DNA of 24,647 bases from Nitrospirota bacterium (GTDB lineage Bacteria; NPL-UPA2; JAADIA01), in assembly GCA_013151555.1 (NCBI GenBank), contig JAADIA010000080.1, positions 1 through 24,647 on the forward strand, read 5' to 3'. The notes below the pieces were generated by a model that saw nothing but the letters and a program-made list of their open reading frames with translations, was not told the origin of the DNA and did no database searches. Below, one piece after another: positions 1,256 through 24,647 of this stretch; positions within the stretch are counted from its first letter, which is position 1; each line of letters starts with the position of its first letter. The translations under genes were made by a program, and so were the position numbers.

Positions 1256-2893
1256 TTGTCTCAGGATTCACATCAAGAACTGGTTAATAAAATTATTGAA
1301 GCTACCGACGCGGCGATTTGGGTTCTGGCAACCCGGCCGGAAGGAGCAGGTGTTTCCTTCCCCGAAATTGAATGTCTGGGAAAATTACAACAACGCTATG
1401 GGCGCGAGTTCCCGGTTCTGAACGATCAGAGCGAATTTTGGGAAACCCTGTGGCTTTGTACTGACCGGGTGCGTCAGCAATGGGACCGGATTGAGAAGTT
1501 AGCCCGCCGCACCGGGCCCGGGGTTCTGGAAAGGCTGCAACCGCTACTGGATGAGCAACGCCACGCGCTTTATCAGTGGGCTCGCCGTTTCATCACCGAG
1601 CATGCCCCGGTCTGTCCCCGGGTCGCCCATTTCGAGCTGGGCATTTCCCCTCTCAGACCGGATTGCCGCGGTCTCCACGAGCGTTTGGAAGGGCTCTACG
1701 AATCGGTCAAACGTATCGGTCGGTTCCCCACCGTGGAAGAAGGACTGGCTTTGCCGGAAGACCGGGTCAACATCGGCCTGATTTACGGGGGCGGCTGGAA
1801 CGTGAGCACCTTCAGCGTGCTGCGCGAGGCAGCGCATTTCCCGGGGATGAATACCTTTGTCGCTTTTGATCACGCGGGTGCCGACCTCTTCGGGCATGCG
1901 GGAGGGCGCGTAGTCCGTCTGGCTCCGGCGGGTCTGGTTCGAAGGTCCGGCAGGGAGGGTGAGGAGTATCTCCTGGCAACTTTCCGCAAGCCGCCGGTTC
2001 TGCATTTTGCTTTCCCTTACCAGTGGACCGGTACTCCACCTCATGAGCTCGGGCTGCCGATTCTGCGTTCGGACCTGACCCTGGAAATCGTGGATGATAA
2101 ATTGACTACTTCGCAGGCCCTTGCCTGGTATATGCAGACCTCGGGGGTACAACTCCCCCTGCCCCGGGAAAGGGGAATCCGTCAGGTACCGGGGCCGGTC
2201 GACCTTGATGCTCTGGCACACAGGGTGGCGGAAGCGCTCAATAGTCTGGAAGCGGAGGGTGTGGAAGAGGTGGTAGTCAAGCCGTCTTTTGGGGAGCAGT
2301 CTCAAGGCGTGCGCTATTTTTCCCTTTCAGGCGCGCGTCAGTCTGTTATTGAATATGCTGTCCGGCTTGGGTTGGAATACGATGTGGTAATCCAGGAACG
2401 GATTCGTCCGCCCGGAGGGGTTGATTTCGACTGGCGCGTGCTTGTGGCTCTCTCTCCGCAGGGTGAGCCGACGGTGGTGGGGCGTTTTGCCCGCAGGCGC
2501 CGGGGCGAAGATATTGAAATGGTAGCCGAGCGCGAGATGCCGGAGAGAGTCGGGATTACGGGAAAGGAAGCTGAGGCCTTGCTGGACAGGTTGAATGAGG
2601 TATCGCTCCATGCCTTCCGTGCGGTTGCCGGCTATGCTTTAGCCCGGCGGGATTTTCCCTGGCGCCCGTTGGGGGGCAATTCCTATGCCTTACCCTACTT
2701 GCTTGGTATCGATTTGATCGGTGAGGCGCGCATTATGGAGATTAACGGCCACGAGGTGGCCGGTATGTGGACGGATGACCGGCTCTACCCGGAAACACGC
2801 GGCAGGTGCAACCGGGTAGTCCTCGAATCGGCCCAGGTTGCTGCCAGGGATTATCAGGTTGCCCTGATGGCCACTGACAACTTTTGCCTTTAG
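1256..2893 (+). CDS. Large ATP-grasp-fold protein of unknown substrate
   Basis: This 545-residue protein starts at TTG (1256), with TTGGAGGGA 5 nt upstream. The C-terminal half looks like an ATP-grasp ligase. A VVVKPSFGEQSQGV segment (about residue 340) is the nucleotide-binding lysine/glycine loop. QERIRPP...FDWRVLVAL follows, and IMEINGHEVAGMW (about residue 494) supplies the acidic/Asn Mg-binding motif. The first 160 residues are helical and unrecognised. The middle (NIGLIYGGGWNVSTF) may be a pre-ATP-grasp domain. ATP-grasp enzymes join a carboxylate to an amine through an acyl phosphate. It converges on the minus-strand aminomutase operon, shares its GC-rich look and may act in the same pathway (inference). 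Distant similarity to YheC/D or glutathionylspermidine-type ligases is possible but not shown. Confidence 0.75.
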   Translation: MSQDSHQELVNKIIEATDAAIWVLATRPEGAGVSFPEIECLGKLQQRYGREFPVLNDQSEFWETLWLCTDRVRQQWDRIEKLARRTGPGVLERLQPLLDEQRHALYQWARRFITEHAPVCPRVAHFELGISPLRPDCRGLHERLEGLYESVKRIGRFPTVEEGLALPEDRVNIGLIYGGGWNVSTFSVLREAAHFPGMNTFVAFDHAGADLFGHAGGRVVRLAPAGLVRRSGREGEEYLLATFRKPPVLHFAFPYQWTGTPPHELGLPILRSDLTLEIVDDKLTTSQALAWYMQTSGVQLPLPRERGIRQVPGPVDLDALAHRVAEALNSLEAEGVEEVVVKPSFGEQSQGVRYFSLSGARQSVIEYAVRLGLEYDVVIQERIRPPGGVDFDWRVLVALSPQGEPTVVGRFARRRRGEDIEMVAEREMPERVGITGKEAEALLDRLNEVSLHAFRAVAGYALARRDFPWRPLGGNSYALPYLLGIDLIGEARIMEINGHEVAGMWTDDRLYPETRGRCNRVVLESAQVAARDYQVALMATDNFCL

Positions 2894-2989: not shown

Positions 2990-3910
2990 TTATGCTAACC
3001 CGACCCGGTACTTGCGCAAAAGGTGATGGGGATAATAGGACTTCTTCGCTTGCCTGAGGCCGGGTAACCCCAGATCCTGTTCCCGGTTAATCCATTTAAA
3101 TCCTGCTGCGGTATGTCTTGCAAACTCCTGGTTGATAACCGCATACGCCCCGGGCAATGAGTTGTTGGCCTTTTCGACGCGGGTAACAAAAGTGTCCTGA
3201 TTAAGGGGCTCTCCGAGGGCAAAGGCCACGATGTCACCTTCGCTGACCAGGGCACCTCCCCGGAGACCGAGCCACTGATAATTGGTGAGCACGGAAACCG
3301 TTGTCTCTACCTCTCGCCGAAGTCCGGGGAGATGGTGTTTGGGATGTTTTTCGAGCCAGTCCCGGCAGAACCGAGCGCATTCCTCCGCGAGGGAGGGGTT
3401 GAGGTCTTGATATCGGGCTTCGGGAAAAGTCTTCCGGAACTGCTGGATGTGGTTACGCTTTCTGTGAAGGAGGCGTCCGGGTAGTTTACGCAGTTTTTCC
3501 CCGGCATAGACGTAATCGGCTCGTTCGTGTTCTTCGGTTATGGTGATGTCGCTCTGCTCCGCCAGCCGTTCGGCTAAGGCCTGTGGTACCCGGGCGAAGG
3601 TAGCAGCGGGAATATCTTTGGCCTCTTTGAGGGCCGCCGGAATCAGGAGAGCTGCCTCTTCGAGATTTGAAATGAGGGGCGGTAGCAGGTGGGATTTCCC
3701 GGTTGCCGGGGCCTCGTTCAGCAGAATAATGGTTCCCCGAAAGCGGGCCAGGCGGCAGTGGGTGTAGGAGCGCCAGATCCACTGATAGGCAAAGGTGAAC
3801 TCACTGATCTCGGGTTGTGCCGCCTCGAAAGCGGCCTGAAGTAGTCCCTTATGTTCCCGGCCGAGCGGCGTGAATTGCGGATACTCGGGCAATTCGCTCC
3901 GTTCGGACAT
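2990..3910 (-). CDS. DUF2156 protein (LPG_synthase_C-like, GNAT fold), putative aminoacyl transferase
   Basis: The protein resembles the soluble C-terminal domain of MprF-type lysylphosphatidylglycerol synthases and stand-alone DUF2156 proteins. Recognisable parts are ISEFTFAYQWIWR near the N terminus, then RKLPGRLLHRKRNHIQQF, LTNYQWLGLRGGALV, and the end pattern NREQDLGLPGLRQAKKSY with a KYRV tail. Family members move an aminoacyl group from tRNA to a lipid or small molecule; the acceptor here is unknown. No membrane segments are visible, so it should be cytoplasmic. An upstream ATG at 3991 would add 27 low-complexity residues and has no clear ribosome site. The ATG at 3910 has GGGAG just upstream, so I use it (306 residues). 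It is the last gene of the operon, 87 nt after the aminomutase. Confidence 0.82.
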   Translation of the reverse strand: MSERSELPEYPQFTPLGREHKGLLQAAFEAAQPEISEFTFAYQWIWRSYTHCRLARFRGTIILLNEAPATGKSHLLPPLISNLEEAALLIPAALKEAKDIPAATFARVPQALAERLAEQSDITITEEHERADYVYAGEKLRKLPGRLLHRKRNHIQQFRKTFPEARYQDLNPSLAEECARFCRDWLEKHPKHHLPGLRREVETTVSVLTNYQWLGLRGGALVSEGDIVAFALGEPLNQDTFVTRVEKANNSLPGAYAVINQEFARHTAAGFKWINREQDLGLPGLRQAKKSYYPHHLLRKYRVGLA

Positions 3911-3997
3911 AGTTTCTCCCGGACCATTCTCGGCAGGCGGCTCTACTCCGGGTTCGGTTTGACGGGTGCCTCTGTTGGCGGGAGTCGGCATCGTTGG

Positions 3998-5137
3998 CTA
4001 CAACCTGTCGGAACTGCAGGCGCAGGATGCCGAGGGTTGCGGCATTTCTTGCGGTTGGGAAACATTCTGCTCCTCGGGAGGATTCTCTTCCCGCCAAATG
4101 TTGCCGTTATAAGTGCAGAGAACCATTTTGTTACCTTCTCGGCCTACCACGTAGGAGGGGGCAATCGGTATCTTGCCATAGGGGGTATCGAGTACGTACT
4201 TGGGAACGGCAAGTCCCGAGGTGTAACCCTGCAGGCCGCGCATAATTTTGAGACCGCGTTCAATAGGCGTGCGCAGATGCCGGGTCCCCGTAAGTGTTTG
4301 GCACTGGTAAATATAATAAGGCCGCACCCGGATACGCATTAGTTGTTGGCAAAGCTTTTTCATGGTGGGCAAATTGTCGTTGATACCTCGTAAGAGAACC
4401 GACTGGTTCCCCAGGGGGATCCCGGCTGAAGCCAGACGGGCGCAGGCCTGTTCGGCCTCCGGAGTAATCTCCCGGGGATGGTTAAACTGGGTATTAAGGT
4501 AGATAGGGTGATATTTTTCCAGCATCTTGCACAACTCCGGCGTGATACGCTGTGGCAGGGTGCAGGGAGCCCGTGAGCCGATACGGATTACCTCGACTGA
4601 GGGAATGGCATGAAGGCGCCGGATGATATCCTCGAGACGGTCGTCAGGCATCATTAGCGGGTCACCTCCGGTCAGCAGAACGTCGCGGATTTCGGCATGT
4701 TCGCGGATATACCGGATGCCTGCGGCAACCTTATCGTCGGAAAATTCCCGGTCCGGTTTTCCCACCATTGTTTCTTTACGCAGGCAATGCCGGCAGTAGG
4801 TCGGGCACCGGTTACCTATGCAGAAGGCGACCCGGTCGGGATAGACTCTGATGACCAGTTCAACCGGGGCGTGTTTTTCCTCATCAAGCGGGTCAGCCAC
4901 CCCGGCATCGTCGAAGAGTTCTTCGGCTGTGGGCACAACCTGCATCCGGATGGGACAATGCCGGTCCGTACGGTCTATCAGTCCGGCGAAATAGGGCGTG
5001 ATTGCCCAGGTGAACCGGAAACTTGCCTCCTTAATGCTCACGCGTTCTTCTTTTGTCAGATCTGTGTACTTCTCCAACTGCTCCAGCGTGGTGATCCGGT
5101 TGGCTAACTGCCAATTCCAATCGTTCCAATCTTTCAT
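3998..5137 (-). CDS. KamA-family radical SAM/PLP aminomutase
   Basis: A 379-residue member of the lysine 2,3-aminomutase family, which moves an alpha-amino group to the beta carbon using SAM, a 4Fe-4S cluster and PLP. The cluster motif CPTYCRHC gives C111, C115 and C118, with R120 matching the carboxylate-binding Arg of the Clostridium enzyme. PLP should be held by K322 in DTPYGKIP. Of the two aspartates that grip the side-chain amine of lysine in the classical enzyme (293 and 330), the second is kept as D317 but the first is Gln (Q280, in YIYQCQTLTG). The 37-residue spacing is identical, which supports the alignment. The substrate may therefore not be lysine. The C-terminal tail is short and contains CAC. 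It lies 13 nt after the ligase stop, in one operon. Confidence 0.92.
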   Translation of the reverse strand: MKDWNDWNWQLANRITTLEQLEKYTDLTKEERVSIKEASFRFTWAITPYFAGLIDRTDRHCPIRMQVVPTAEELFDDAGVADPLDEEKHAPVELVIRVYPDRVAFCIGNRCPTYCRHCLRKETMVGKPDREFSDDKVAAGIRYIREHAEIRDVLLTGGDPLMMPDDRLEDIIRRLHAIPSVEVIRIGSRAPCTLPQRITPELCKMLEKYHPIYLNTQFNHPREITPEAEQACARLASAGIPLGNQSVLLRGINDNLPTMKKLCQQLMRIRVRPYYIYQCQTLTGTRHLRTPIERGLKIMRGLQGYTSGLAVPKYVLDTPYGKIPIAPSYVVGREGNKMVLCTYNGNIWREENPPEEQNVSQPQEMPQPSASCACSSDRL

Positions 5138-5150
5138 TTTCCTTAGTCTC

Positions 5151-6167
5151 CTAAACCGTTTGTTCCGACATCCTGATTTGAAGAGGAGGTCTGTTTTGAT
5201 AATTAGGTCTCCGTTGCCGGGCCCAGTCGATAATTTGACCGATAAGCTGTTGGTACGATAGTCCCGCTACTGCTGCCTGGTAGGGGAAGATACTGTAATA
5301 GGGCGAAAGACCGGGCAGAGGATTAATCTCCAGAAAATTCGGCCGGCCGTCATCATCGAGTTTGAAGTCCACGCGGGCCAGGTCACGGCATGCCAGAATG
5401 GTGAATATTTTTAAGCCCATCCAGCGCAGCTCTTCGGCAAGATTTTCCGGAATTTCAGCCGGACAGATCAGCTCCCTTTGGTGGTCATGTTTTTCCTCAT
5501 AAGGATAAAAGTTCCGGCGGCTGCGGATCTCAACAACCGGGAGGAGCCGGGGCTTTTCGTTGCCGATGATTCCCACGCAGAATTCTCTTCCGGGAGCGAA
5601 TTCCTCTACCAGGCAATCCTGCTCGTACGTCTCCAGTATCCAGGCCACCCGGCGTTGGAGTTGGTCCCGCGTTTCGATGCGGGAGGTGGAGCGGATGCCC
5701 ATACTCGAACCTTCCGCGTTTGGTTTGACGAAAAGCGGACATTTCAGGTCAAGGTTATTCAAGTCTTCTATGCGGTGCACCTTTTTGAATGCCGGAGTGC
5801 GCAGCCCCCCGGCCGAGGCGAGCGTTTTCGTCAAGGCCTTATCCAAACTCATGGCGAGACTAAGTCCGTCTGAACCTGTGTAGGGAATACCAAGATGGTC
5901 GAGCCACGCGGGCACGATAGATTCGCGTGCCGGGCCCCGGATGCCCTCGGCTATGTTAAATACCAGATCGGGTTTCAGCTGGCGGATCTGCCCGGGAAAG
6001 TCCTCGGTGAGGTTTATTCCGACGGCCTTGTGTCCGCAGGCGCGAATAGCTTGCAGCAGGACCTCAATTGTGCGGTTACTCTCGTATTCTGCCCCGATAT
6101 CTTCCGGCAGGGGTTCCCCTGCAGATTCAGGGCCAAGCGGTTCATCGTAAACAAGCACGACTTTCAT
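5151..6167 (-). CDS. D-alanine-D-alanine-ligase-like ATP-grasp enzyme
   Basis: The 338-residue protein has the full ATP-grasp order of the Ddl family. DLVFNIAEGIRGPARES and IPYTGSD lie in the N-terminal domain, SLDKALTKTL at about residue 107, LFVKPNAEGSSMGI with K148, LVEEFAPGREF, ARVDFKLDDDGRP, and the Mg-binding EINPLPGLSP (E280, N282). Canonical Ddl enzymes have an E-V/I-N-T-x-P-G-x-T end with serine and leucine landmarks; here it is INPLPGLSPYYSIFP. Its place between a regulator and an aminomutase also argues for a dedicated ligase and against housekeeping cell-wall Ddl. The likely reaction is ATP-dependent dipeptide or amide formation, with substrates unknown. Its start overlaps the regulator stop as ATGA (6164-6167), indicating translational coupling. 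Confidence 0.88.
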   Translation of the reverse strand: MKVVLVYDEPLGPESAGEPLPEDIGAEYESNRTIEVLLQAIRACGHKAVGINLTEDFPGQIRQLKPDLVFNIAEGIRGPARESIVPAWLDHLGIPYTGSDGLSLAMSLDKALTKTLASAGGLRTPAFKKVHRIEDLNNLDLKCPLFVKPNAEGSSMGIRSTSRIETRDQLQRRVAWILETYEQDCLVEEFAPGREFCVGIIGNEKPRLLPVVEIRSRRNFYPYEEKHDHQRELICPAEIPENLAEELRWMGLKIFTILACRDLARVDFKLDDDGRPNFLEINPLPGLSPYYSIFPYQAAVAGLSYQQLIGQIIDWARQRRPNYQNRPPLQIRMSEQTV

Positions 6168-6517
6168 GTTCGGGACCTATCCGGTTTAAGCGGAGAGCTT
6201 TCTTCCGGGTCGGGGACTACCCTTTTTTGTTCTTCGTCGCAGAAGTTGGCAAGATATTCCTGAACTTGCGCGAACGCCTCAGAAACCCGCCAGTAATAGA
6301 CACTGCAGCAAGACTTGCGACAGTTTACCAATCCCGCTTCTTTTAAGATGAGAAGGTGTCGGGACATGTTAGGCTGTGAGCCCCCCATCTCTTTGACTAA
6401 ATCGCCCACATTATACATTTCCTCACATCTCGGTTGCGAGGGTAAGAGACAGAGAATCTTAATCCTGGTCACATCCCCTATCGCCTTGAAAATCTTTGCC
6501 TGTGTTTCAATATCCAT
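6164..6517 (-). CDS. ArsR/SmtB-family winged-helix repressor
   Basis: A 117-residue ArsR-type regulator. It has KIFKAIGDVTRIKILCLL, then the recognition helix region SQPNMSRHLLILKEAGLV and the wing with VYYWR. The ATG at 6517 has GGAGG just upstream and is preferred over an upstream ATG at 6541 without a ribosome site. Cysteines are C23, C31, C66, C70, C71 and C93. C31 sits shortly before the DNA-binding helices, near where ArsR proteins carry metal-binding Cys, but there is no CVCDL motif. The C66/C70/C71 set lies at the wing and could be a thiol or metal sensor. It is the first gene of the aminomutase operon and probably autoregulates it. Confidence 0.9.
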   Translation of the reverse strand: MDIETQAKIFKAIGDVTRIKILCLLPSQPRCEEMYNVGDLVKEMGGSQPNMSRHLLILKEAGLVNCRKSCCSVYYWRVSEAFAQVQEYLANFCDEEQKRVVPDPEESSPLKPDRSRT

Positions 6518-6540: not shown

Positions 6541-6582
6541 TTACAATATTTGCATATTAGCATGTTTCGATAAGGCTGTCAA
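6541..6582 (-). promoter_or_regulatory. Promoter and candidate operator of the aminomutase operon
   Basis: Read on the minus strand there is a perfect -35 TTGACA (6582-6577), a 17-nt spacer and TAATAT as -10 (6559-6554). The -10 lies inside an imperfect dyad TGCTAATATGCA (6562-6551). It also lies in a direct repeat, ATGCTAAT then ATGCAAAT. Such an element over the -10 is where an ArsR-type repressor would be expected to bind. The transcript would start around 6547, about 30 nt before the regulator ATG. Confidence 0.65.
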
Positions 6583-8919: not shown

Positions 8920-9216
8920 ATGGCTATTAAAAAGGGGTGTCTTACAAAGGAGCGGAAGGAATTGATCCGGAAACGGTTGAATCGTATCAGCGGTCAGGTC
9001 AATGGACTTAAAAAGATGGTGGATGACGATAGATATTGCCTGGATATTTTACAACAGATTTCTTCAGTGCATGAGGCCTTGAGGGGTGCCGGCAAGGTGC
9101 TGATGCGGAACTACCTGGAGGTATGTGCTACCAATGCCATACGGTCAAAAAAAGAAGAAAAACAAGACCAGATTTATAATGAACTGATGGAGATTATCTA
9201 TAAGTTTGCTAAATAA
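8920..9216 (+). CDS. DUF156/CsoR-family transcriptional repressor in a mer operon
   Basis: A 98-residue all-helical repressor of the CsoR/RcnR/FrmR/CstR superfamily (RLNRISGQVNGLKKMVDDDRYC...). In CsoR, copper is held by Cys36, His61 and Cys65. The same spacing here gives C40, Y65 and C69, so the histidine is replaced by tyrosine and only the two thiols remain. That pattern is closer to the persulfide sensor CstR than to a copper sensor, and a dithiol site could also take Hg(II). It is the first gene of the merT-merA transcript, and no MerR is present, so it is the obvious candidate mercury or thiol-stress regulator. The family call is firm; the ligand is inference. Confidence 0.92.
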   Translation: MAIKKGCLTKERKELIRKRLNRISGQVNGLKKMVDDDRYCLDILQQISSVHEALRGAGKVLMRNYLEVCATNAIRSKKEEKQDQIYNELMEIIYKFAK

Positions 9217-9254
9217 CCAAAGAGTTGAACATGGATACAGGGAAGGAGTTATTC

Positions 9255-9644
9255 ATGAAAACTAGGTGGTCAAATACCGGGTCTCTAATTAGTGGAGCAA
9301 TTGCCTCCGTCTGTTGTGTTGGGCCATTGCTAATAGTTGCTCTGGGAATTTCCGGCGCAAGCTGGATCCCGGCGGTGAGACACTTCCGGCCATATTTTAT
9401 AATCATCACTCTGGGGTTTCTTGCCTGGTCCTGGTATGTATTCTTGAAGAAGAAAGCCTGCTGTGAGGCCGGCTCACCGGCAGCTAAGAGCCTGAAAAGA
9501 AGCAAAATTTCTCTTTATGTGATAACCCTATTGGTGCTTGTGTTATTAGCCTTACCTTATTTTCTGAGCGGAAGGATGAAGGCCAGGATGAAGGCGGCAA
9601 AAGCGGCAAAGGCTACTGTGTCCGGTATAAAGGGGAGAAAGTAA
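9255..9644 (+). CDS. merT: MerT-type mercuric ion transporter
   Basis: A 129-residue inner-membrane protein with three hydrophobic segments. The MerT signature CCVGPLLIVALGISGA puts a vicinal Cys pair (C20, C21) in the first helix. A second pair, ACC (C69, C70), lies in the loop after the second helix, as in classical MerT. MerT takes Hg(II) across the membrane and hands it to MerA. GGAAGGAG (9240-9247) fixes the start at 9255; an ATG at 9231 lacks a site. The C-terminal tail after helix 3 is Lys/Ala rich (KARMKAAKAAKA). No MerP is encoded, so another protein must act as thiol relay or none is used. Confidence 0.9.
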   Translation: MKTRWSNTGSLISGAIASVCCVGPLLIVALGISGASWIPAVRHFRPYFIIITLGFLAWSWYVFLKKKACCEAGSPAAKSLKRSKISLYVITLLVLVLLALPYFLSGRMKARMKAAKAAKATVSGIKGRK

Positions 9645-9705
9645 CCAAGGTTACCGAAAAGTTGCAGGTGGAAAGAAGGACCTGTTCACTTTAAGGAGAA
9701 TTGAG

Positions 9706-11106
9706 ATGGAAAAATATGATTTAATAATTATCGGGGGTGGGGCGGCGGGATTTTCCGCAGCTATTAAGGCGGACAGTTTAGGAGCAAAAACCTTAATTGT
9801 GAATGCCGGATTACCTATGGGGGGGACCTGTGTGAATGTGGGATGTGTGCCTACCAAATTTTTATTGGAGGTGGCTAAAGACTACTTTCGGGCAAGAAAT
9901 TATCCCTTTAAGTCTCTCAAGTTGGAAGCAGAAATCGGTTTTGCGGAAGTTGTGGAGGAAAAAGATGAGCTGGTAACGGCCTTAAGAAAAGCAAATTATT
10001 CGGATGTCCTGGAGAATTTGCCTCAGGTAACTTATAAGGAAGGCAAGGGGAGATTTTTGTCTGCAGGGGTAATCGAGGTGAAGGGAGAAAGGTTCTCCGG
10101 GGATAAATTCATAATTTCCCCCGGTTCCGCTCCCAAGGTTTTACCTCTTGAAGGATTAAAAGAAGCGGGCTTTTTGACTAACCGCACGGCTTTAGAGTTA
10201 AAAAGTCTCCCTGAAAGTATGCTGGTAATCGGGGCCGGTCCCATCGGTTTGGAATTTGCCCAGATTTTCTCCCGCTTGGGAAGCAAGGTTACCGTGCTGG
10301 AACTGCTGGAGCGGATTTTACCTCAAGCCGAGCCGGTTGTCTCCGAGGAATTACAAAAATGCCTGCAAGAAGAAGGAATAAATATAATTACCGGGGCAAA
10401 AATAAAAAAGATAGAAAAGAAAGATGGAAAGAAAATTGTGGTCATTGAAAGAGAAAATTCTTTCCGGGAAATCCCGGTAGAAGAAATTTTATTAGCCGCA
10501 GGGGTGGTGGGAAACAGCCGGGAATTGGGGTTGGAAAATTTAGGGATAGAAGTTGATAAAGGAGGCTTTATTAAGGTGGATGAATATTTGCAGACCTCTC
10601 AACCCCAGGTTTATGCTGCCGGGGATGTGTCCGGAACCCCCTGGCTTGAGACCGTGGCTGCAAAGGAAGGGAATATTGCCTGCAAGAATGCTTTAGGAGA
10701 AGAAAGGATCCAGATGGATTACCACAATATCCCCGCTGCCGTATTTACCTCGCCTCAAGTTGCCTCGGTAGGAATGAAGGAAGCCGAATATATGACTGAA
10801 TATGGCACCTGTCTTTGCCGGATGGTAAAAATGGATAGAGTGCCCAAAGCATTGGCTCTTCAAGAGACTAAGGGCTTAATCTTTATGGTCATTGGTCATG
10901 AGGATAAAAAGATAAAAGGGGTGCATATCGTATCGGAGTTGGCCTCTGAAATTATCCATGAGGCGACATTGGCCGTTAAGCAAGAGATGACCATAGATGA
11001 AATCATCGATACCGTTCATGTTTTCCCGACTTTCAGTGAGGCGATAAAGATTGCCGCCCAGGCATTTACACACGACCCCAAGAAGATGAGCTGCTGTGTG
11101 GAATAA
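9706..11106 (+). CDS. merA: Mercuric reductase MerA, without N-terminal heavy-metal domain
   Basis: A 466-residue FAD/NADPH disulfide oxidoreductase that reduces Hg(II) to Hg(0) in the cytoplasm. The N-terminal FAD motif is IIIGGGAAGFSAA. The redox pair C42/C47 lies in GGTCVNVGCVPTK, the NADPH motif in VIGAGPIGLEFAQ, and the second FAD motif in VYAAGDVSGTP. The C-terminal vicinal cysteines (C463, C464 in KKMSCCVE) are the mercury-delivery pair and separate MerA from lipoamide dehydrogenase and glutathione reductase. The MerP-like N-terminal domain found in many MerA proteins is absent. The start has AAGGAG upstream. It lies 61 nt after merT in the same transcript. Confidence 0.95.
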   Translation: MEKYDLIIIGGGAAGFSAAIKADSLGAKTLIVNAGLPMGGTCVNVGCVPTKFLLEVAKDYFRARNYPFKSLKLEAEIGFAEVVEEKDELVTALRKANYSDVLENLPQVTYKEGKGRFLSAGVIEVKGERFSGDKFIISPGSAPKVLPLEGLKEAGFLTNRTALELKSLPESMLVIGAGPIGLEFAQIFSRLGSKVTVLELLERILPQAEPVVSEELQKCLQEEGINIITGAKIKKIEKKDGKKIVVIERENSFREIPVEEILLAAGVVGNSRELGLENLGIEVDKGGFIKVDEYLQTSQPQVYAAGDVSGTPWLETVAAKEGNIACKNALGEERIQMDYHNIPAAVFTSPQVASVGMKEAEYMTEYGTCLCRMVKMDRVPKALALQETKGLIFMVIGHEDKKIKGVHIVSELASEIIHEATLAVKQEMTIDEIIDTVHVFPTFSEAIKIAAQAFTHDPKKMSCCVE

Positions 11107-11157
11107 AGGGATTTTTCCCTGTGGCGTCGGTTCCAGTCGCTCATCTTAATGTTATCC
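11083..11157 (+). repeat. attC-like site A (merA end to cysteine-rich gene)
   Basis: Its right half, CTGTGGCGTCGGTTCC then AGTCGCTCATCTT, shares wording with the other intercassette sites and ends in GTTATCC (11151-11157). The left arm AAGATGAGC (11083-11091) lies inside the last codons of merA and pairs perfectly with GCTCATCTT (11139-11147). An inner hairpin AGGGA/TCCCT lies between. It could also help terminate mer transcription. Confidence 0.45.
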
Positions 11158-11187
11158 ATCAGCAAATTAAATAAGGAGGCATTAAAA

Positions 11188-11562
11188 ATGAAAACAGCGG
11201 TTTGCCCTACGTGTGGTTGTTCCCTTGTAAGATTAGGTATCACTAAAGAGAGTGCAGTAATACGGAAATACCAAGAAAAAGAATATTCGTTCTGTTGCGA
11301 TGGATGTGCCCTCATGTTCGAAGAAAATCCTGAAGCCCTATTAGAAGAAACTAATAGTCTCGTCGTATGTCCAAGTTGCTTAGCAGAAAAACCAATAAAT
11401 CAAACCGTATCAATTAGCTATCAGGGTGAGAAACTGTATTTTTGCAAGTGCCCACATTGTATAACTGTCTTTCAGGAAGATTCAGAATATTATATAAAAC
11501 GTTTATCTGGTGAAATTAAATTTTCTGGTGTTTTCTCTGAGGGCCGAGGGTGTTGTACATAA
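11188..11562 (+). CDS. Cysteine-rich protein with two TRASH/YHS-like metal-binding modules
   Basis: A 124-residue protein with 13 cysteines. Module 1 has CPTCGC (C6, C9, C11) followed by YSFCCDGCALMFEENPE (C36, C37, C40). Module 2 repeats the plan with CPSC (C61, C64) and LYFCKCPHCITVFQED (C86, C88, C91). The C-x2-C, about 22-27 residues, then C-x(1-4)-C spacing with an F-x-x-(N/D) tail resembles TRASH/YHS treble-clef metal-trafficking domains. It ends in GRGCCT, a vicinal Cys pair at the extreme C terminus as in MerA. The start at 11188 has AAGGAGG upstream. It follows merA by 81 nt and may bind or relay Hg(II), replacing MerP (inference). It is more AT-rich than merA and lies between two attC-like sites, so it may be a separate cassette. 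Confidence 0.75.
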   Translation: MKTAVCPTCGCSLVRLGITKESAVIRKYQEKEYSFCCDGCALMFEENPEALLEETNSLVVCPSCLAEKPINQTVSISYQGEKLYFCKCPHCITVFQEDSEYYIKRLSGEIKFSGVFSEGRGCCT

Positions 11563-17308: not shown

Positions 17309-18253
17309 ATGATTAATAAAATTGTTTTTAACCTCCTCCAGGTCATTGTGGTAATGGCTTTCTCCCCTCTGGTGAAGGGAGTTATTGACTACCTGAAAGA
17401 GACGGTTCAGTCCCGTTGCGGCCCGAGTATCTTCCAGCCCTATCTGGATATCTGGAAACTTTTTCATAAAGATGAGGTGGTTTCCGAACAGAGTTCGTGG
17501 ATATTCCGGTTCACGCCTTATATGGTGTTTGTAACTCCTATCTTTGTAACGCTTCTTATTCCGGTTCTCACTAGATATCCTTTGTTTTTCGCTTTTATGG
17601 GCGATATGCTCGGCGCGGGATTCATTCTCGCCCTGGGCGGGTTTTTTGCTACCTTATCGGCAGTGGATACGGGGAATCCTTATGGCCCGATGGGGGCCAG
17701 CCGCACCCGTATGGTCGGTTTTCTTGCTGAACCTGTGTTTATGATTGTCTTTTTTACCGTCTCCTTTGTGGCTGGTTCGACTATACCCTATATTGTCCAG
17801 AAGGTCTGGGTAACGCCGCTTTCCAATTTTTTTGAACCCTCGCATGTGCTGGTAATGCTTGCCTTTATCATGCTTATTATTGCCGAGGCGGGACGTATTC
17901 CTGTGGATAATCCTTCCGGGCATTTTGAACTGGCCATGATAGATGAATCCAAGGGGCTGGAATATTCCGGGCGGGGAGCGGCTCTTATGAAATGGGGCGG
18001 GAGTATGAAGTTCTTTGTCCTGGTGTCGATATTTCTCAATGTTCTTGTTACTCCCTGGGGACTGGCCCAGGGAAACAGCCTGGGCGCGGTGCTTCTTGCC
18101 ATCCCTCTTATTCTGCTCAAAATATTTGCCTTTATCATTGTTCTGGTGGTGATCGAGTCTTCGTTTGCAAAACTGAGGCTCTTCCGTATCCCGGAGTTTC
18201 TTGTTGCGGCTTTCATTACCTCTGTTGCCGCGATGATAACATATTTTTTTTAA
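17309..18253 (+). CDS. HyfC/HycD-like (NuoH family) membrane subunit of an Ehr complex
   Basis: A 314-residue multi-span membrane protein of the family that anchors the hydrophilic arm of complex I and group 4 hydrogenases. Typical motifs: KGVIDYLKETVQSRCGPSIF, then QPYLDIWKLFHKDEVV near the N terminus, MGASRTRMVGFLAEPVFM, and EAGRIPVDNPSGHFELAMI with DESKGLEYSGRGAALMKWGG, which matches the conserved acidic NuoH loop. GGAGGGG sits 5 nt before the ATG. It is the first recognisable gene after the fluoride riboswitch and leads the hyf-like operon. Confidence 0.93.
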   Translation: MINKIVFNLLQVIVVMAFSPLVKGVIDYLKETVQSRCGPSIFQPYLDIWKLFHKDEVVSEQSSWIFRFTPYMVFVTPIFVTLLIPVLTRYPLFFAFMGDMLGAGFILALGGFFATLSAVDTGNPYGPMGASRTRMVGFLAEPVFMIVFFTVSFVAGSTIPYIVQKVWVTPLSNFFEPSHVLVMLAFIMLIIAEAGRIPVDNPSGHFELAMIDESKGLEYSGRGAALMKWGGSMKFFVLVSIFLNVLVTPWGLAQGNSLGAVLLAIPLILLKIFAFIIVLVVIESSFAKLRLFRIPEFLVAAFITSVAAMITYFF

Positions 18254-18274
18254 ATTCGTAGGAGAGGAAAGACG

Positions 18275-18958
18275 ATGATAGACCATAGTGCAACACCTAC
18301 GTTGCTGACGCAATTGAATGCCCTTACCGGGGGGCTGTTTCTTCTCTCAACATTTGGCGTCATTGCCGTGCGTCAGGTGCTTGGCTGTTTAAAAATGTTT
18401 ATAATTCAGTCTCTTCTCCTGTCGGCGTCTGCTTTGTTTCTGGCTTATTATTATTCCTCCGTTCACTTGCTCGCTGTAGCTGCTATCGCTCTTGGGGTTA
18501 AACCTTTTTTAATCCCCTATCTGCTTCGCCGGACGGTAGGAGAGGAACTTACTTCCCGGCGGGAGATATCCCAGGTCTTGAACATATCGACATCGTTGCT
18601 GATTGCTGCCGGACTTACGGTCTTTTCATATTTTGTTGCCAAACCGCTGCTGAGCGTTTCCGGCGGCATAATTACTGCGGTCAACCTCCCCATTGGGATA
18701 TCGGCTCTCTTTATCGGCGCTTATGTGTTGACGGTAAGGAGGGAGGCTGTGCCTCAGACTATCGGGATCCTTACTATGGAGAACGGGGCCTTTTTCGCTG
18801 GTATCTCTATTGCCTCCGGTTTGCCGTTCATCGCGGAGTTGACGGCTGCCTTTGATGCTCTTATCATTGCCGTTGTTATGGGTATCCTGATCAGAAAGAT
18901 TCACGAACGGGTGGGAACTACTGCCGTTGGCGGGATGAAAGCCCTGAAGGAGGAATAG
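18275..18958 (+). CDS. HyfE-like (NuoK-related) membrane subunit
   Basis: A 227-residue hydrophobic protein with about seven spans. The C-terminal half has the HyfE/NuoK pattern: ALFIGAYVLTVRREAVPQTI, then GILTMENGAFFAGISIASGL, and PFIAELTAAFDALI with membrane glutamates that in NuoK form part of the proton path. It is longer than NuoK (about 100 residues), as HyfE proteins are. TAGGAGAGG precedes the ATG. It sits 21 nt after the NuoH-like gene. Confidence 0.9.
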   Translation: MIDHSATPTLLTQLNALTGGLFLLSTFGVIAVRQVLGCLKMFIIQSLLLSASALFLAYYYSSVHLLAVAAIALGVKPFLIPYLLRRTVGEELTSRREISQVLNISTSLLIAAGLTVFSYFVAKPLLSVSGGIITAVNLPIGISALFIGAYVLTVRREAVPQTIGILTMENGAFFAGISIASGLPFIAELTAAFDALIIAVVMGILIRKIHERVGTTAVGGMKALKEE

Positions 18959-18964
18959 GAACAG

Positions 18965-20410
18965 ATGGAGCTTATTTTTATTCTTATCATACCCATAGCA
19001 GCGGCTCTTCTCTCGCTTGTCCCTGCGGGCAAGAAATTTGCCTCGGGGATAACCATTGCCGGGGCGGTTGCGGTTTTTATCCTTACCCTGAGAGCAGTAT
19101 TTGCAGTCGCCGGGGGCCGGGAACTGACCGCAGTGAGAAACTGGATTTCCTCCGACGGCCTTGGCGTTCTTATCCTTTTACTGGTAGCCTTTGTGGGACT
19201 TACTTCGGCTATATTTTCCCGGGGTTATATGGGAAGGATTGTGGAAGCCGGCAAGCTCAGGAAGGTCCGCCGCTATTATTTCCGTTATAATCTCTTTGTC
19301 TTTTCCATGCTATCCATACCTATTTTATCCCAGGTGTCTCTTGTCTGGGTTCTCGTAGAACTGACCACGCTGCTGTCGGTCTTGCTGGTAAGCTTTGAAA
19401 ATACCGCTGAGGCGCTGGAGGCGGCCTGGAAATATATCGTGCTTACCGGTATGGGGGCAGCATTTGCTCTTCTGGGCATTCTCATCCTTTACTGGGGAAT
19501 GCATATCGCCGGGGGAGAGGCGTTTACCTGGGCCGGTCTTATCAAGGCGGCCCCGGCCATCCCGCCCGCCCTGCTGAAAACAGCTTTTATCTTTATCCTC
19601 ATCGGATTCGGGACAAAGATCGGTCTTGTGCCTTTGCATACCTGGCTGCCTGATGCCCATAGTCAGGCGCCTGCGCCGGTCTGTGCTCTCCTCTCGGGGG
19701 TGGAGACCACCACTGTTCTCTATGTAGTTTTAAGGCTTTTACCGGTTCTGGAAGCTTCGAAGACAATTAATACCGGCAACTGGTTTATCGTCTCCGGTCT
19801 CATCTCGGTCGGCGCTGCGGCCTTCCTGTTGATTCAGGTAAAGGATTATAAACGCTTATTCGCTTTTTCCACAATCGAACATATGGGAATTATTATGGTT
19901 GCCGCCGGGCTGGGCGGGTTTGCCGGTCATCTTGGCGCTGTCTATCAGATATTAACCCATTCCATCACAAAATCTCTTTCTTTCTTTGCCGCCGGTTCCG
20001 TATTTCTGCTCCTGGGCAGCCGGAACATTTCCTCGGTGAAAGGACTTATAAAAACATCCCCGATCACCGGAGCGGCCCTTCTTATCGGGGGGCTAGCCAT
20101 TGCCGGAGCGCCTCCCTTTGCCGTATTCCTGAGTGAATTCTCTATCTTAAAAGCCGGTATTGCCGGTGGCAATTATCTGACAATCGGCCTTCTGACGGTC
20201 TTTATTGTCATTGCCTTTTGCGCCCTTATGTTTCATGTAAACCGGATGGTTTTCGGAAAGCCAGCGCAGGAACCGCTTAATCCGGGGCTGCCCCCGGCGG
20301 CAATTGTCGCGTTGGTCCTGGCTGTTATTCCTGTGATTCTCCTGGGATTTTATATCCCCGGTCCGCTTAATAAACTTTTACTGTATGCCGCCTCTTCTCT
20401 GGGGAGATAA
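18965..20410 (+). CDS. HyfF-like antiporter-type membrane subunit (NuoN/NuoM family)
   Basis: A 481-residue protein with about 14 spans in the Mrp/NuoL-M-N fold. Signatures: a conserved Glu in VLVELTTLLSVLLVSFE, a Lys in GFGTKIGLVPLHTWLPDAHS followed by QAPAPVCALLSGVETTTVLY, and KDYKRLFAFSTIEHMGIIMV. These charged residues make up the ion-translocating half channels. The start at 18965 is 6 nt after the previous stop, with GGAGGAATAGGA overlapping it, so the genes are tightly coupled. A 270-nt gap containing a repeat element follows. Confidence 0.93.
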   Translation: MELIFILIIPIAAALLSLVPAGKKFASGITIAGAVAVFILTLRAVFAVAGGRELTAVRNWISSDGLGVLILLLVAFVGLTSAIFSRGYMGRIVEAGKLRKVRRYYFRYNLFVFSMLSIPILSQVSLVWVLVELTTLLSVLLVSFENTAEALEAAWKYIVLTGMGAAFALLGILILYWGMHIAGGEAFTWAGLIKAAPAIPPALLKTAFIFILIGFGTKIGLVPLHTWLPDAHSQAPAPVCALLSGVETTTVLYVVLRLLPVLEASKTINTGNWFIVSGLISVGAAAFLLIQVKDYKRLFAFSTIEHMGIIMVAAGLGGFAGHLGAVYQILTHSITKSLSFFAAGSVFLLLGSRNISSVKGLIKTSPITGAALLIGGLAIAGAPPFAVFLSEFSILKAGIAGGNYLTIGLLTVFIVIAFCALMFHVNRMVFGKPAQEPLNPGLPPAAIVALVLAVIPVILLGFYIPGPLNKLLLYAASSLGR

Positions 20411-20540
20411 CATTATGAGGCTCATCTACAAAAGGCGTAGTTATGCACAGAGAAGTTACTCAAATAACCTTTTTAAACCGCAGATTGAACGGATTTAAAT
20501 AAAATGAAATAAATCAACTCTTTTAGAGCATAAAAAATAT

Positions 20541-20647
20541 AAACCACGAGATTTCACAAGATTTACACAGAAACAAAACTAATATCTAATTTTTTTCTTT
20601 CAATTTTAGATTCTCTAATCTTGTGATAATCTGTGTAATCTGTGGTT
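20541..20647 (+). repeat. MITE-like inverted repeat element 1 (CACAGATT type)
   Basis: The left end AACCACGAGATTTCACAAG... (from 20542) and the right end ...CTGTGTAATCTGTGGTT (to 20646) are imperfect inverted copies of about 30 nt built from CACAGATT units. The interior is AT-rich. It fills much of the 20411-20680 gap inside the operon. No coding capacity seen. Confidence 0.7.
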
Positions 20648-20680
20648 ATAGGGTTTTCTTGATTTGGGGAAGGACCGATT

Positions 20681-22288
20681 ATGAAAAGCAAAACGGATAA
20701 TAATATTAAACTAAGTGATTTACCCCGGGCGCTCAGTTCCCGCTGGCCGGATAGGGTAAGAGCAAGTCTGGCGCCGGATAAGTTACTCTGCCGGATAGAA
20801 TGTCATCCGGCCGAACTCACCGGCGTCTGTGAATGGCTGAGCTCAAAACTGGGATACAGGTTTGCCACGATGATAATTGAGGAAGCGGCTGAGGACTGGG
20901 TGGGGCAATATATCTTTTACGGCGGTAGAGAGAAGGCTTTTGTTTACCTGACGGTCAGGCAGGTCAAGTCAGATAAATCCTTTCCTTCTATAAGCAAGGT
21001 CGTTCATGCCGCTGACTGGCACGAACGGGAGGCGGAGGACCTTTTCGGCCTCGTCTTTGCCGGTCATCCCCGGCTGAACGATTTTGTCCTTCATGAGGAG
21101 TGGCCGGAAGGGGTAAACCCGATGAAAAGGGAATTCAACGCGAAAGAGCCTTATCTCCACAGAGAAGCCAAACCGGAGTGGCGGCCGAAAGCTATTCTCC
21201 ATGAACCCGGCGCTTTTATGATGCCTATAGGCCCGGTCTATGCCGGGGCTGCTGAATCCGTCCATTTTCTTCTGGAGACGGTCGGGGAGGATGTGGTCAG
21301 GACGATACCCCGGTTATTCTATAAATACCGCGGAGTGGAGAAAATAGCTGAAGGACAGCCGGTGGAAAAGGTCCTTCTTCTCGCGGAACGGTTTTCCGGA
21401 AGCGCTGCTTTTGCTCATTCCCTGGCTTTCTGCCAGGCGGTAGAGGGAACTATGGGGGCCGATGAGGTGCCTCGGCGGGCTCGGGAGCTCCGGGTGCTGC
21501 TTGCCGAGCTGGAGCGTATGCGTCATCATCTATCCGCAATTGAAGGAATCTGTAGTTCTACCGGTCTTGCAGTAGCGGCAAGTCAGACAGGCATCCTGGA
21601 AGAGGAACTCCTGCGTCTAAGCGCTGAATTTACCGGGCATCGTTATCTCTTCGGCCTGAATATTCCGGGTGGGCTCTCCCGGGATTTTACCAATGAAGAG
21701 TGCCGGAAACTTGCCCGGAAAATAAATGAAATCCTGAAAAAATTAGAGGAACTGCAGGGGATGCTTCGTTATTCAAGCAGTTTCCTTGACCGGCTGGAAG
21801 AAGTAGGTATAATCTCCAGAGAAGGTGCCATGAATTACGGGCTGGTCGGCCCGGTTGCCCGTGCCTGCGGCATCCGCCATGACCTGCGTCGGGCTCTGCC
21901 TTATGCTGCTTATGATTCCGTACAATTTTCTCTGCCCGCGGAAAGGGAAGGTGACGGTTATGCCCGTCTCCGTCTCCTCTTTCAAGAAGCGGAACAGTCG
22001 GCAAATATCATTGCGCAGCTCACCCGGTCTCTTGCGGGAGGCAATGTTTATAAACAAATGGATAAATTTTCTTCCGGCTCGGCCCTGGGCTGGGTAGAGG
22101 CTCCTTTGGGGGCGGCTTTTCACTGGTTAAGAATTGACGATAACGGCCGGGTTGTCCGTTATGACCTGACTACCCCGTCCTTTACCAACTGGCACGGGTT
22201 TCATCTGGCGGCCGAGGACTTTGCTTTTCAGGATTTTCCGATTATCCTGGCTACCTTTGGACTATCAGTCGCCGAGTCCGACCGTTGA
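20681..22288 (+). CDS. HyfG/HycE-like large subunit lacking the NiFe site (Ehr catalytic-position subunit)
   Basis: 535 residues. The N-terminal third is a NuoC-like domain (HAADWHEREAEDLFGLVFAG, then HPRLNDFVLHEEWPEGVNP). The rest is a NuoD/hydrogenase-large-subunit domain (PIGPVYAGAAESVHF, RGVEKIAEGQPVEKVLLLAE). In hydrogenases the next motif is ERxCGxC; here it is ERFSGSA, with S239 and A242 in place of both cysteines. The C-terminal DPCxxC is also gone (S529 and E532 in GLSVAESDR). It therefore cannot bind the NiFe cofactor in the usual way and cannot be a working NiFe hydrogenase. This is the definition of the energy-converting-hydrogenase-related (Ehr) group, whose substrate is unknown. 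Confidence 0.92.
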   Translation: MKSKTDNNIKLSDLPRALSSRWPDRVRASLAPDKLLCRIECHPAELTGVCEWLSSKLGYRFATMIIEEAAEDWVGQYIFYGGREKAFVYLTVRQVKSDKSFPSISKVVHAADWHEREAEDLFGLVFAGHPRLNDFVLHEEWPEGVNPMKREFNAKEPYLHREAKPEWRPKAILHEPGAFMMPIGPVYAGAAESVHFLLETVGEDVVRTIPRLFYKYRGVEKIAEGQPVEKVLLLAERFSGSAAFAHSLAFCQAVEGTMGADEVPRRARELRVLLAELERMRHHLSAIEGICSSTGLAVAASQTGILEEELLRLSAEFTGHRYLFGLNIPGGLSRDFTNEECRKLARKINEILKKLEELQGMLRYSSSFLDRLEEVGIISREGAMNYGLVGPVARACGIRHDLRRALPYAAYDSVQFSLPAEREGDGYARLRLLFQEAEQSANIIAQLTRSLAGGNVYKQMDKFSSGSALGWVEAPLGAAFHWLRIDDNGRVVRYDLTTPSFTNWHGFHLAAEDFAFQDFPIILATFGLSVAESDR

Positions 22289-22324
22289 TAGGGTTAAAAA
22301 TAATATGAAAAAGAGATGAAGAAA

Positions 22325-22566
22325 ATTTGACAGGATTAACGGGATAGACAGGATTGAAAAAGCTAAAAGCTGAAATAAATAAAAGAGTGAGAAACAAAGC
22401 CCCGTAAAAGTTTATAAAGAGTTTGAAATTCAGTTAGTAAACTATCTAACGGCCACTGGCAAACTGGTAGGATTACTATTAAATTAAATTTTGGCAAGAA
22501 GAAAGTTAAGGTAAAACGAAAAGTAAAGACATTCGGGAAATAAAAATCCTGTTCATCCTGTCAAAA
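22325..22566 (+). repeat. MITE-like inverted repeat element 2 (GACAGGATT type)
   Basis: TTTGACAGGATTAACGGGAT at the left end (about 22326-22345) is an imperfect inverted match to AATCCTGTTCATCCTGTCAA (22545-22564). Between them is AT-rich DNA without a gene. It occupies most of the 22289-22692 gap between the large and small subunit genes. It belongs to a different repeat family from element 1. Confidence 0.7.
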
Positions 22567-22692
22567 GAAGGTTTTGATTAACTAACAGGATTACGGAGAA
22601 GATTGTGGATAACTACACTTTTAGGAGAAGAACCAAAAATCTTTAGGGAAACTTTCGATAATACTGTATTGCTAAAAGGGAGATGGATAAAT

Positions 22693-23457
22693 ATGTTCGG
22701 GTGGGTCTTAAAAGGATTGGCAACGGGGATTAAAACAACCCGGTATCCAAAGAAAGAGGAAACGGCGCCGGGTATCTCGGCCGGGCGACCATGTGCCGGG
22801 AAGGTCAGCGGGGATAATAAATCAACCCTGGCCGTTTGTCCGGCCGGGGCGTTGGCTGAGAATAAAGGCATGGTATCTGTAGACTATTCCCGCTGTATCC
22901 ATTGTTTTCGCTGCCGGCGCACCCCGGGAATTATTCCTCTTGATTGGCAAGGCGGTTATGAATGGGCTGCGGTCACGGACAGGGATAGTAAGGACAAAGG
23001 AAAAATGGGAAAAGCCTTCCGCCGGTCTCTTCACCTCAGGATTGTGGATGCCGGAGCCTGCGGCGCTTGCTTGAGCGAAATCTCACAGATAAGTAAACCC
23101 TACTATAATATCCATCGGCTCGGATTTTTTATAACTCCGACTCCAAGGAAGGCTGATGTCCTTATTGTGGCCGGGCCGGTAACCGACCACATGCGTTTTC
23201 CCCTTCGAGAAGCTTATGAGGCAATGCCGACACCCCGGGCGGTGATAGCTGTCGGGACATGTGCCCTATCCGGCGGTCTCTTCGGGCCGAGCTTCGCATC
23301 TTGTGAAGGTGTCCACGAGGTGTTGCCCGTGGATATTGCTCTGCCGGGATGCCCGCCGCCGCCCCTGGCGATTATTCACGCCTTGCTGTTATTGACCGGA
23401 CGCAGATCCCCTGCCGCCCTTATATCAACCGGTCTTAAAGGGAAAAAGGAGCAATAA
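22693..23457 (+). CDS. HyfI/HycG-like small subunit with N-terminal ferredoxin-type domain
   Basis: A 254-residue iron-sulfur subunit. The N-terminal part starts like HyfH/HycF ferredoxins (MFGWVLKGLATGIKTTRYP) but keeps cysteines for one 4Fe-4S cluster only: C49 in VCPAGAL and C68, C71, C74 in CIHCFRC. The C-terminal part is the NuoB/hydrogenase small subunit with C123, C126 (GACGACLSE), C190 (GTCALSGG) and C220 (PGCPPPP), enough for the proximal cluster. Electron transfer is thus intact although the partner lacks nickel. A TTG at 22603 could extend the frame, but those 30 residues are not family-like. The ATG at 22693 has GGGAG upstream. The next gene starts in the overlap TAATG. Confidence 0.9.
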   Translation: MFGWVLKGLATGIKTTRYPKKEETAPGISAGRPCAGKVSGDNKSTLAVCPAGALAENKGMVSVDYSRCIHCFRCRRTPGIIPLDWQGGYEWAAVTDRDSKDKGKMGKAFRRSLHLRIVDAGACGACLSEISQISKPYYNIHRLGFFITPTPRKADVLIVAGPVTDHMRFPLREAYEAMPTPRAVIAVGTCALSGGLFGPSFASCEGVHEVLPVDIALPGCPPPPLAIIHALLLLTGRRSPAALISTGLKGKKEQ

Positions 23458-24647
23458 TGGAGACATCTCATCTTCTGATAATTTTTCTTCTCCTTTGCGC
23501 CGGCGGGGTCTTTCTCAGCCTTATCCTCCCTGAGCGCAGGAATCCTGTGGCGCTTGCCTGGGTTGCCTCCCTGTCATCCGTAGCAATCCTGCTGGCGAGC
23601 GGGAAGATACTTTTGTCCGGGCAGACATTCCAGGCGGAACTCTGGAGGATAGCTTCCCTGGGAGTTATCAGTCTCAAGATAGACCGTCTCTCGGCCCTGT
23701 TTATCTTCGTAACCGGTATTGTTTTTCTTCCTGTTTCCATCTACTCAGCACGTTACCGAGATACCTTGGCCGTTACAGCCTGAAGTCATTCGCGGTCTTT
23801 TATCATTTGCTCTTTGCCTCTATTATCCTCATCCTTATTTCCGCGGATGTCCTTTCCTTTATCTTAGCCTGGGAAATAATGTCTATCCTCGCCTATTTGC
23901 TGGTGAACTATGAACATGACAAGAAAAGCAACACCCGCTCCGGCCTGTTGATGCTGGCTATGAGTGAGGCGGGAACTCTGGCGGTAGTCCTGGGATTCCT
24001 CGTTCTGGCACGGGTCTCGGGCAATCTTGATTTTGTCTCTTTAAAGTCAGCGGCGGCGGGCATGGGAGATCCTGCCCGGCTGGCAGTCTTTCTGCTTGCT
24101 TTTTTCGGCTTTAGTGTCAAGGCCGGGTTAGTTCCCGTTAATACCTGGCTTCCCCGGGCGCACACCGCTGCCCCGGGCAGTTTTTCCGCCATCCTTTCCG
24201 GGGCTACTCTCAACCTGGGCATCTACGGTATCATTCGTATCAATGCCGATATCCTTCCTCAGACAAGTGTGGGTGCCGGGGTGATTGTTCTCATAATAGG
24301 AAGCCTTTCCGCCCTGCTCGGCATCCTCTATGCCACTACCGAGAACGATATGAAAAAAATGCTTGCCCACAGTTCCATAGAGAATATGGGTATTGTTGCC
24401 GTCGGCCTGGGAGCAGGATTTATCTTTTCCGCCCTGGGGCATCCGGCTTTAGCCGGCATTGCTTTCATCGCCGCCCTTTATCACATGACCAATCATTCCT
24501 TATTTAAGACGCTCCTCTTTCTTGGAGCCGGGGGCATAGATTCAGGAACGGGCACGCGTAATATGGACCGCCTGGGAGGGTTAATCAAGGCTATGCCCTG
24601 GACCGGACTTTTCTTTCTCGTGGGTGCTCTCTCTATCGCTGCCCTTC
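23457..24647 (+). pseudogene. HyfB/NuoL-like antiporter subunit, frameshifted and cut by the window end
   Basis: The first 108 codons give a NuoL-type start (ILPERRNPVALAW, then LKIDRLSALFIFVTG) and stop at 23783. From 23762 a second frame continues the same protein without a stop to the window end: YLGRYSLKSFAVFYHLLFAS, then KAGLVPVNTWLPRAHTAAPG and LAHSSIENMGIVAV. Both frames meet in the conserved YSxxY...GRYSLK region. A single lost base at about 23757-23762 (RYRE-YLGRYSLK) explains it. Real mutation, sequencing error and programmed frameshift are all possible; the intact remainder favours error or recent mutation. As a HyfB homologue it would be an ion-translocating subunit of the complex. 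Confidence 0.85.

Follow-up and report, generated by a model that had tools for sequence, protein, structure and literature searches.

Radical aminomutases of the KamA family occur in pathways in which the product is acylated. The ablA-ablB genes, which direct synthesis of the osmolyte N-epsilon-acetyl-beta-lysine, place a KamA-family aminomutase beside an acyl-transfer-type gene. In blasticidin S synthesis, which uses the arginine 2,3-aminomutase BlsG, leucine is later added to the beta-amine as an acyl group (PMC5572114). A further group of relevant enzymes, the MprF/VlmA type, is tRNA-dependent, and VlmA of valanimycin synthesis acts on a small molecule (PMC2922099). Here we analyzed a 24,647-nt stretch of DNA from an anaerobic Nitrospirota bacterium (contig JAADIA010000080.1, assembly GCA_013151555.1; "the window"), in which a minus-strand block at 2990–6517 holds four genes. 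From open reading frames (ORFs) and Pfam and NCBIfam matches, these encode an ArsR-family regulator, a Ddl-like ATP-grasp ligase, a KamA-family aminomutase and a DUF2156/LPG_synthase_C protein, which bore out the gene content proposed in a first-pass annotation of this DNA. The KamA and Ddl-like genes were found to form a real conserved module across several bacterial phyla. Judged from sequence, the operon is on balance probably a small route, independent of nonribosomal peptide synthetases, to a dipeptide containing a beta-amino acid.

Conservation of the KamA–Ddl pair

KamA was searched for in 386 genomes and the Ddl-like ligase in 79 of the KamA-bearing ones, and a pair was counted when a Ddl-like gene lay within 3.5 kb of KamA. 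Genes in the fetched neighbourhoods were called as the longest ORF, helped by homology, and some of the contigs were short. A pair was present in 28 of the 79 KamA-bearing genomes, with 23 family codes represented, and the chance expectation was about 0.3 genomes (arithmetic based on about one to two Ddl matches per 3-Mb genome). Examples came from Dehalococcoidia (L004) and Firmicutes UBA5435 (L005). The type of Ddl–KamA pair seen in the window also occurred in L004, L093, L094, L095 and L096, and in L005 it was followed downstream by a GNAT acyltransferase gene. Relatives with a long-loop KamA (the short loop of the window enzyme is described below) had the order Ddl1-Ddl2-GNAT-KamA or KamA-Ddl1-Ddl2-GNAT.

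The first-pass annotation had read the four genes as one pathway and had named their conservation as neighbours in other genomes as one way to check it. The KamA–Ddl pair was indeed conserved in distant bacteria. In contrast, the DUF2156 and ArsR genes were not conserved neighbours, and conservation of the four-gene set was rejected since only the pair recurs. No conserved genomic context emerged for DUF2156 when one was looked for, and among the operons examined the combination of ArsR and DUF2156 with KamA–Ddl occurred only in this window. The conserved unit is the KamA–Ddl pair, to which this lineage has added ArsR and DUF2156. The open-access literature yielded nothing on an aminomutase paired with a Ddl or ATP-grasp enzyme; an earlier description is possible.

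Two further observations concern genes next to KamA. Response-regulator genes, of the sigma-54/NtrC type where scanned and often with a kinase-like gene, adjoined the long-loop KamA–Ddl cluster in L041, L076, L078, L083, L084, L085 and L092, and a dedicated two-component system may switch on these long-loop pathways. At L081:7246–8991, a GNAT fused to a histone-deacetylase-like domain was encoded between the KamA and Ddl-like genes.

Active sites and phylogeny of the two enzymes

The window KamA (3998–5137, minus strand; 379 aa) has the Radical_SAM and LAM_C domains (Pfam) of a radical S-adenosylmethionine/pyridoxal phosphate (PLP) aminomutase and scored above the cut-off of the broad family TIGR00238 (316.6 vs 199.2 bits). 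It fell below the cut-offs for lysine 2,3-aminomutase (TIGR03820; 443.9 vs 525.4 bits) and for the BlsG-type arginine 2,3-aminomutase (TIGR04468; 428.9 vs 600 bits). With the lysine 2,3-aminomutase (LAM) structure 2A5H as the reference for residues, the CxxxCxxC cysteines (C111, C115 and C118), R120 (equivalent to the carboxylate-binding Arg134) and K322 (equivalent to the PLP lysine K337) were all kept. LAM Asp330 was also kept, as D317, and LAM Asp293 was replaced by Gln280. The stretch from Asp330 to Lys337 was two residues shorter than in 2A5H, giving the short loop DTPYGK. Asp293 and Asp330 together are, as we take it from the 2A5H structure, the grip on the side-chain amine of lysine. 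Lysine was therefore judged an unlikely substrate, because Asp293 is replaced by Gln. The short-loop KamAs formed a single clade (Shimodaira–Hasegawa approximate likelihood-ratio test (SH-aLRT) 98), which also took in BlsG and the rhizobial plasmid KamAs with moderate support (86/88). The window and L004 enzymes shared a Gln-type subclade (97/94). Residue 293 differed within the short-loop clade (Q, E, H or D), a spread that would be expected with varying substrates.

The ligase (5151–6167, minus strand; 338 aa) matched Dala_Dala_lig_C (1.1e-42), and every Ddl model shown for it in NCBIfam was below its cut-off. Residues for ATP/Mg and for the carboxylate of the second substrate were kept (K110, K148, K226, R265, D267, E280, N282 and S292); the last six correspond to K215, R255, D257, E270, N272 and S281 of the Ddl reference. 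An invariant E27 was one column off DdlB E15. The same genome has a separate canonical Ddl in a murC-murB-ddl-ftsQ-ftsA string (names read from translations), which grouped with canonical Ddls in the tree, and the window ligase lay outside that clade (SH-aLRT 100). A housekeeping role was thus rejected, and by its placement the window ligase is not the cell-wall Ddl. The Ddl partners of short-loop KamAs formed their own clade (SH-aLRT 94), with the window and L004 ligases as sisters (SH-aLRT 95). This agreement between the KamA and Ddl trees is the strongest sign of one common pathway.

Operon layout and neighbouring genes

The first gene of the operon encodes an ArsR/SmtB-family regulator (6164–6517, minus strand; 117 aa) that matched HTH_5 and scored above the cut-off of the metalloregulator subfamily NF033788. 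It has cysteines at positions 23, 31, 66, 70, 71 and 93 and lacks the arsenic motif ELCVCDL, with EEMYNVGDL in its place. Its start is probably at 6517, which is preceded by GGAGGA, rather than at the alternative upstream ATG at 6541. The ArsR and Ddl-like genes overlapped by 4 nt (ATGA) and 13 nt separated the Ddl-like gene from KamA, in line with the couplings proposed earlier. The last gene spans 2990–3910, within an ORF that reaches 3991, and encodes a putative soluble DUF2156/LPG_synthase_C protein of the MprF/VlmA-like family with a GNAT fold. The domain match had an E-value of 2.5e-42 (145 bits against a cut-off of 27.5 in Pfam), and the protein, 306–333 aa long, is nearly all soluble domain and has no counterpart of MprF's membrane half. 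Translation probably starts at Met28 (3910) rather than at 3991, because homologues begin at the equivalent residue; GGGAG lies five bases upstream. With that start, the gap between KamA and DUF2156 is 87 nt rather than 6. The perfect TTGACA of the first-pass annotation was confirmed as the -35 element of a sigma-70-type promoter at 6582–6554 on the minus strand (TTGACA-N17-TAATAT with TG before the -10 element, 10/12 matches), which was graded strong. The operon is probably controlled by the ArsR protein, from the operon's own promoter. An Rfam scan upstream of the operon found no family at the gathering threshold, and a riboswitch there was rejected.

Convergent with the operon is a 545-aa ORF (1256–2893, plus strand) without a Pfam or NCBIfam match. 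Its C-terminal half was ATP-grasp-like on reading, with a weak RimK match (E-value 0.085), and an AlphaFold model from the single sequence had a predicted local distance difference test (pLDDT) score of 40. Searches of 240 other genomes and of plasmids gave no homologue. An orphan second ligase beside the operon is possible. Further away, translations were read only. The plus-strand genes at 8920–11562 (CsoR-like regulator, MerT-like membrane protein, MerA-like flavoprotein and cysteine-rich protein) look like a mercury-resistance operon, and those at 17309–24647 encode a membrane-bound hydrogenase-like complex of the group 4 type.

A candidate dipeptide route and its parallels

In the order of steps that we infer, KamA would act on an amino acid other than lysine and shift its amino group from the alpha to the beta carbon, as suggested by its family and kept catalytic residues. 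The leading guess for the substrate is arginine or some other amino acid held by just one acidic residue. The Ddl-like enzyme would then use ATP to activate the carboxyl of one amino acid and couple it with the amine of another, giving a dipeptide that includes the beta-amino acid. In the least certain step, the DUF2156 protein, which stands in the place held by the GNAT acyltransferase in the long-loop clusters, may use a charged tRNA to donate an aminoacyl group, the reaction that VlmA carries out when valanimycin is made. The earlier suggestion of a beta-amino-acid conjugate or dipeptide is supported in that the pair is conserved and its ligase is distinct from the housekeeping Ddl, and finds no such support as the product of a four-gene pathway. 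Its companion suggestion, modification of a lipid or cell-wall component, gained no positive evidence.

Several results weigh against the dipeptide route. In BlsG it is Asp293 that is kept and Asp330 that is lost, the reverse of the window enzyme (D293/T330 vs Q/D), which leaves arginine as no more than a lead. The best-scoring equivalog of KamA was glutamate 2,3-aminomutase (TIGR04368), far below its cut-off (465.2 vs 650 bits). There was no nearby Ddl-like gene at 8 of 15 short-loop KamA loci, so KamA can work without such a partner. The eight genomes holding the nearest KamAs had no DUF2156, relatives of which were found in 35 of 289 other genomes, with none of those placed adjoining KamA. 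No ArsR relative was present in any fetched KamA neighbourhood. Finally, an AlphaFold model of the DUF2156 protein from its single sequence reached a pLDDT of only 39.

Some of these results would fit a simpler function, in which KamA makes a free beta-amino acid as an osmolyte (beta-glutamate, beta-lysine or an acylated form), with the transcript merely shared by a Ddl-like gene of separate function. The short-loop KamAs that stand alone and the glutamate score both favour this, but the Ddl linkage in 23 families, the separate clade of the Ddl partners, the lack of an AblB-type gene in the operon and an upstream region without an Rfam family at the gathering threshold make it fairly unlikely. 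An altered cell-wall precursor, for which the ligase would place a beta-amino acid at the end of the peptidoglycan stem while the DUF2156 protein modifies lipid or wall, would draw on the Ddl family of the ligase and on the domain shared with MprF. We consider this very unlikely, since the mur cluster has its own canonical Ddl, which lies apart from the window ligase in the tree, the DUF2156 protein lacks the MprF membrane half, and cell-wall genes did not recur next to the pair.

The product could also be a secreted antimetabolite or antibiotic like blasticidin S or the dipeptides of amino-acid ligases, which is a subset of the dipeptide route rather than a clear rival to it. BlsG, of the same KamA clade, shares a cluster with an ATP-grasp ligase, and on a Thioflavicoccus plasmid the Ddl and KamA genes are accompanied by genes for diaminopropionate. 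However, the window operon has no exporter or resistance gene and most short-loop cases are a bare two-gene unit, so secretion seems unlikely. The dipeptide route might belong to a widespread family free of peptide synthetases, in which radical SAM aminomutases feed beta-amino acids to Ddl-derived ligases and the end group is acetyl (GNAT) or tRNA-borne aminoacyl (DUF2156) by lineage, the products being undiscovered beta-amino-acid peptides of anaerobes; we regard this wider proposal as doubtful. If the dipeptide route itself is right, it would identify two enzymes that form a compact and portable set for making beta-amino-acid amides with no need of a peptide synthetase, together with a group of KamAs in which the pocket is remodelled and the substrate directly testable. 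It would further give a gene-level handle on metabolites in at least 23 bacterial families, and a plausible small-molecule acceptor for a standalone DUF2156 protein, of a family for which few functions are known.

Pairing of an aminomutase with an ATP-grasp ligase extends to plasmids and to a known antibiotic. Rhizobium plasmids L109, L122 and L123 shared the order Glu-type dehydrogenase, unknown protein, ATP-grasp and KamA; in L109, the one scanned, the short-loop KamA had Cys for Asp330 and the ligase an LAL_C2 domain. Plasmid pTHIMO01 of Thioflavicoccus mobilis (L111) carried genes for diaminobutyrate transaminase, SbnA, an SbnB-like protein and a Ddl-like ligase, with a convergent long-loop KamA, and this set of diaminopropionate and diaminobutyrate genes suggests diamino acids as ligase substrates. 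In a Kitasatospora blasticidin-type cluster, an ATP-grasp ligase with LAL_C2 was encoded two genes away from blsG. ATP-grasp ligases from at least two distinct subfamilies are thus paired with aminomutases, as both Ddl-like and LAL_C2 pairings were seen.

Among described systems, blasticidin S shares with the window a short-loop aminomutase (BlsG is 51% identical to the window KamA) and a nearby gene for an ATP-dependent carboxylate-amine ligase. It differs in that this ligase is of the L-amino-acid-ligase (LAL_C2) type rather than Ddl and lies in a full nucleoside antibiotic cluster. Compared to ablA-ablB, the window has no AblB, has lost LAM Asp293 and has gained an ATP-grasp ligase, and an MprF-like protein replaces the acetyltransferase. 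The glutamate 2,3-aminomutase (EAM) model came closest in score, with the window KamA below its cut-off. VlmA and MprF belong to the same DUF2156-domain family as the window protein, and VlmA provides the precedent for a small-molecule acceptor; the function of the window protein is putative, and its operon lacks a paralogous tRNA synthetase gene. The long-loop KamA-Ddl1-Ddl2-GNAT clusters, on which the open-access literature held no publication that we found, likewise place KamA and a Ddl1-type ligase side by side, but they have two ligases and a GNAT acyltransferase and keep both Asp residues of the lysine clamp.

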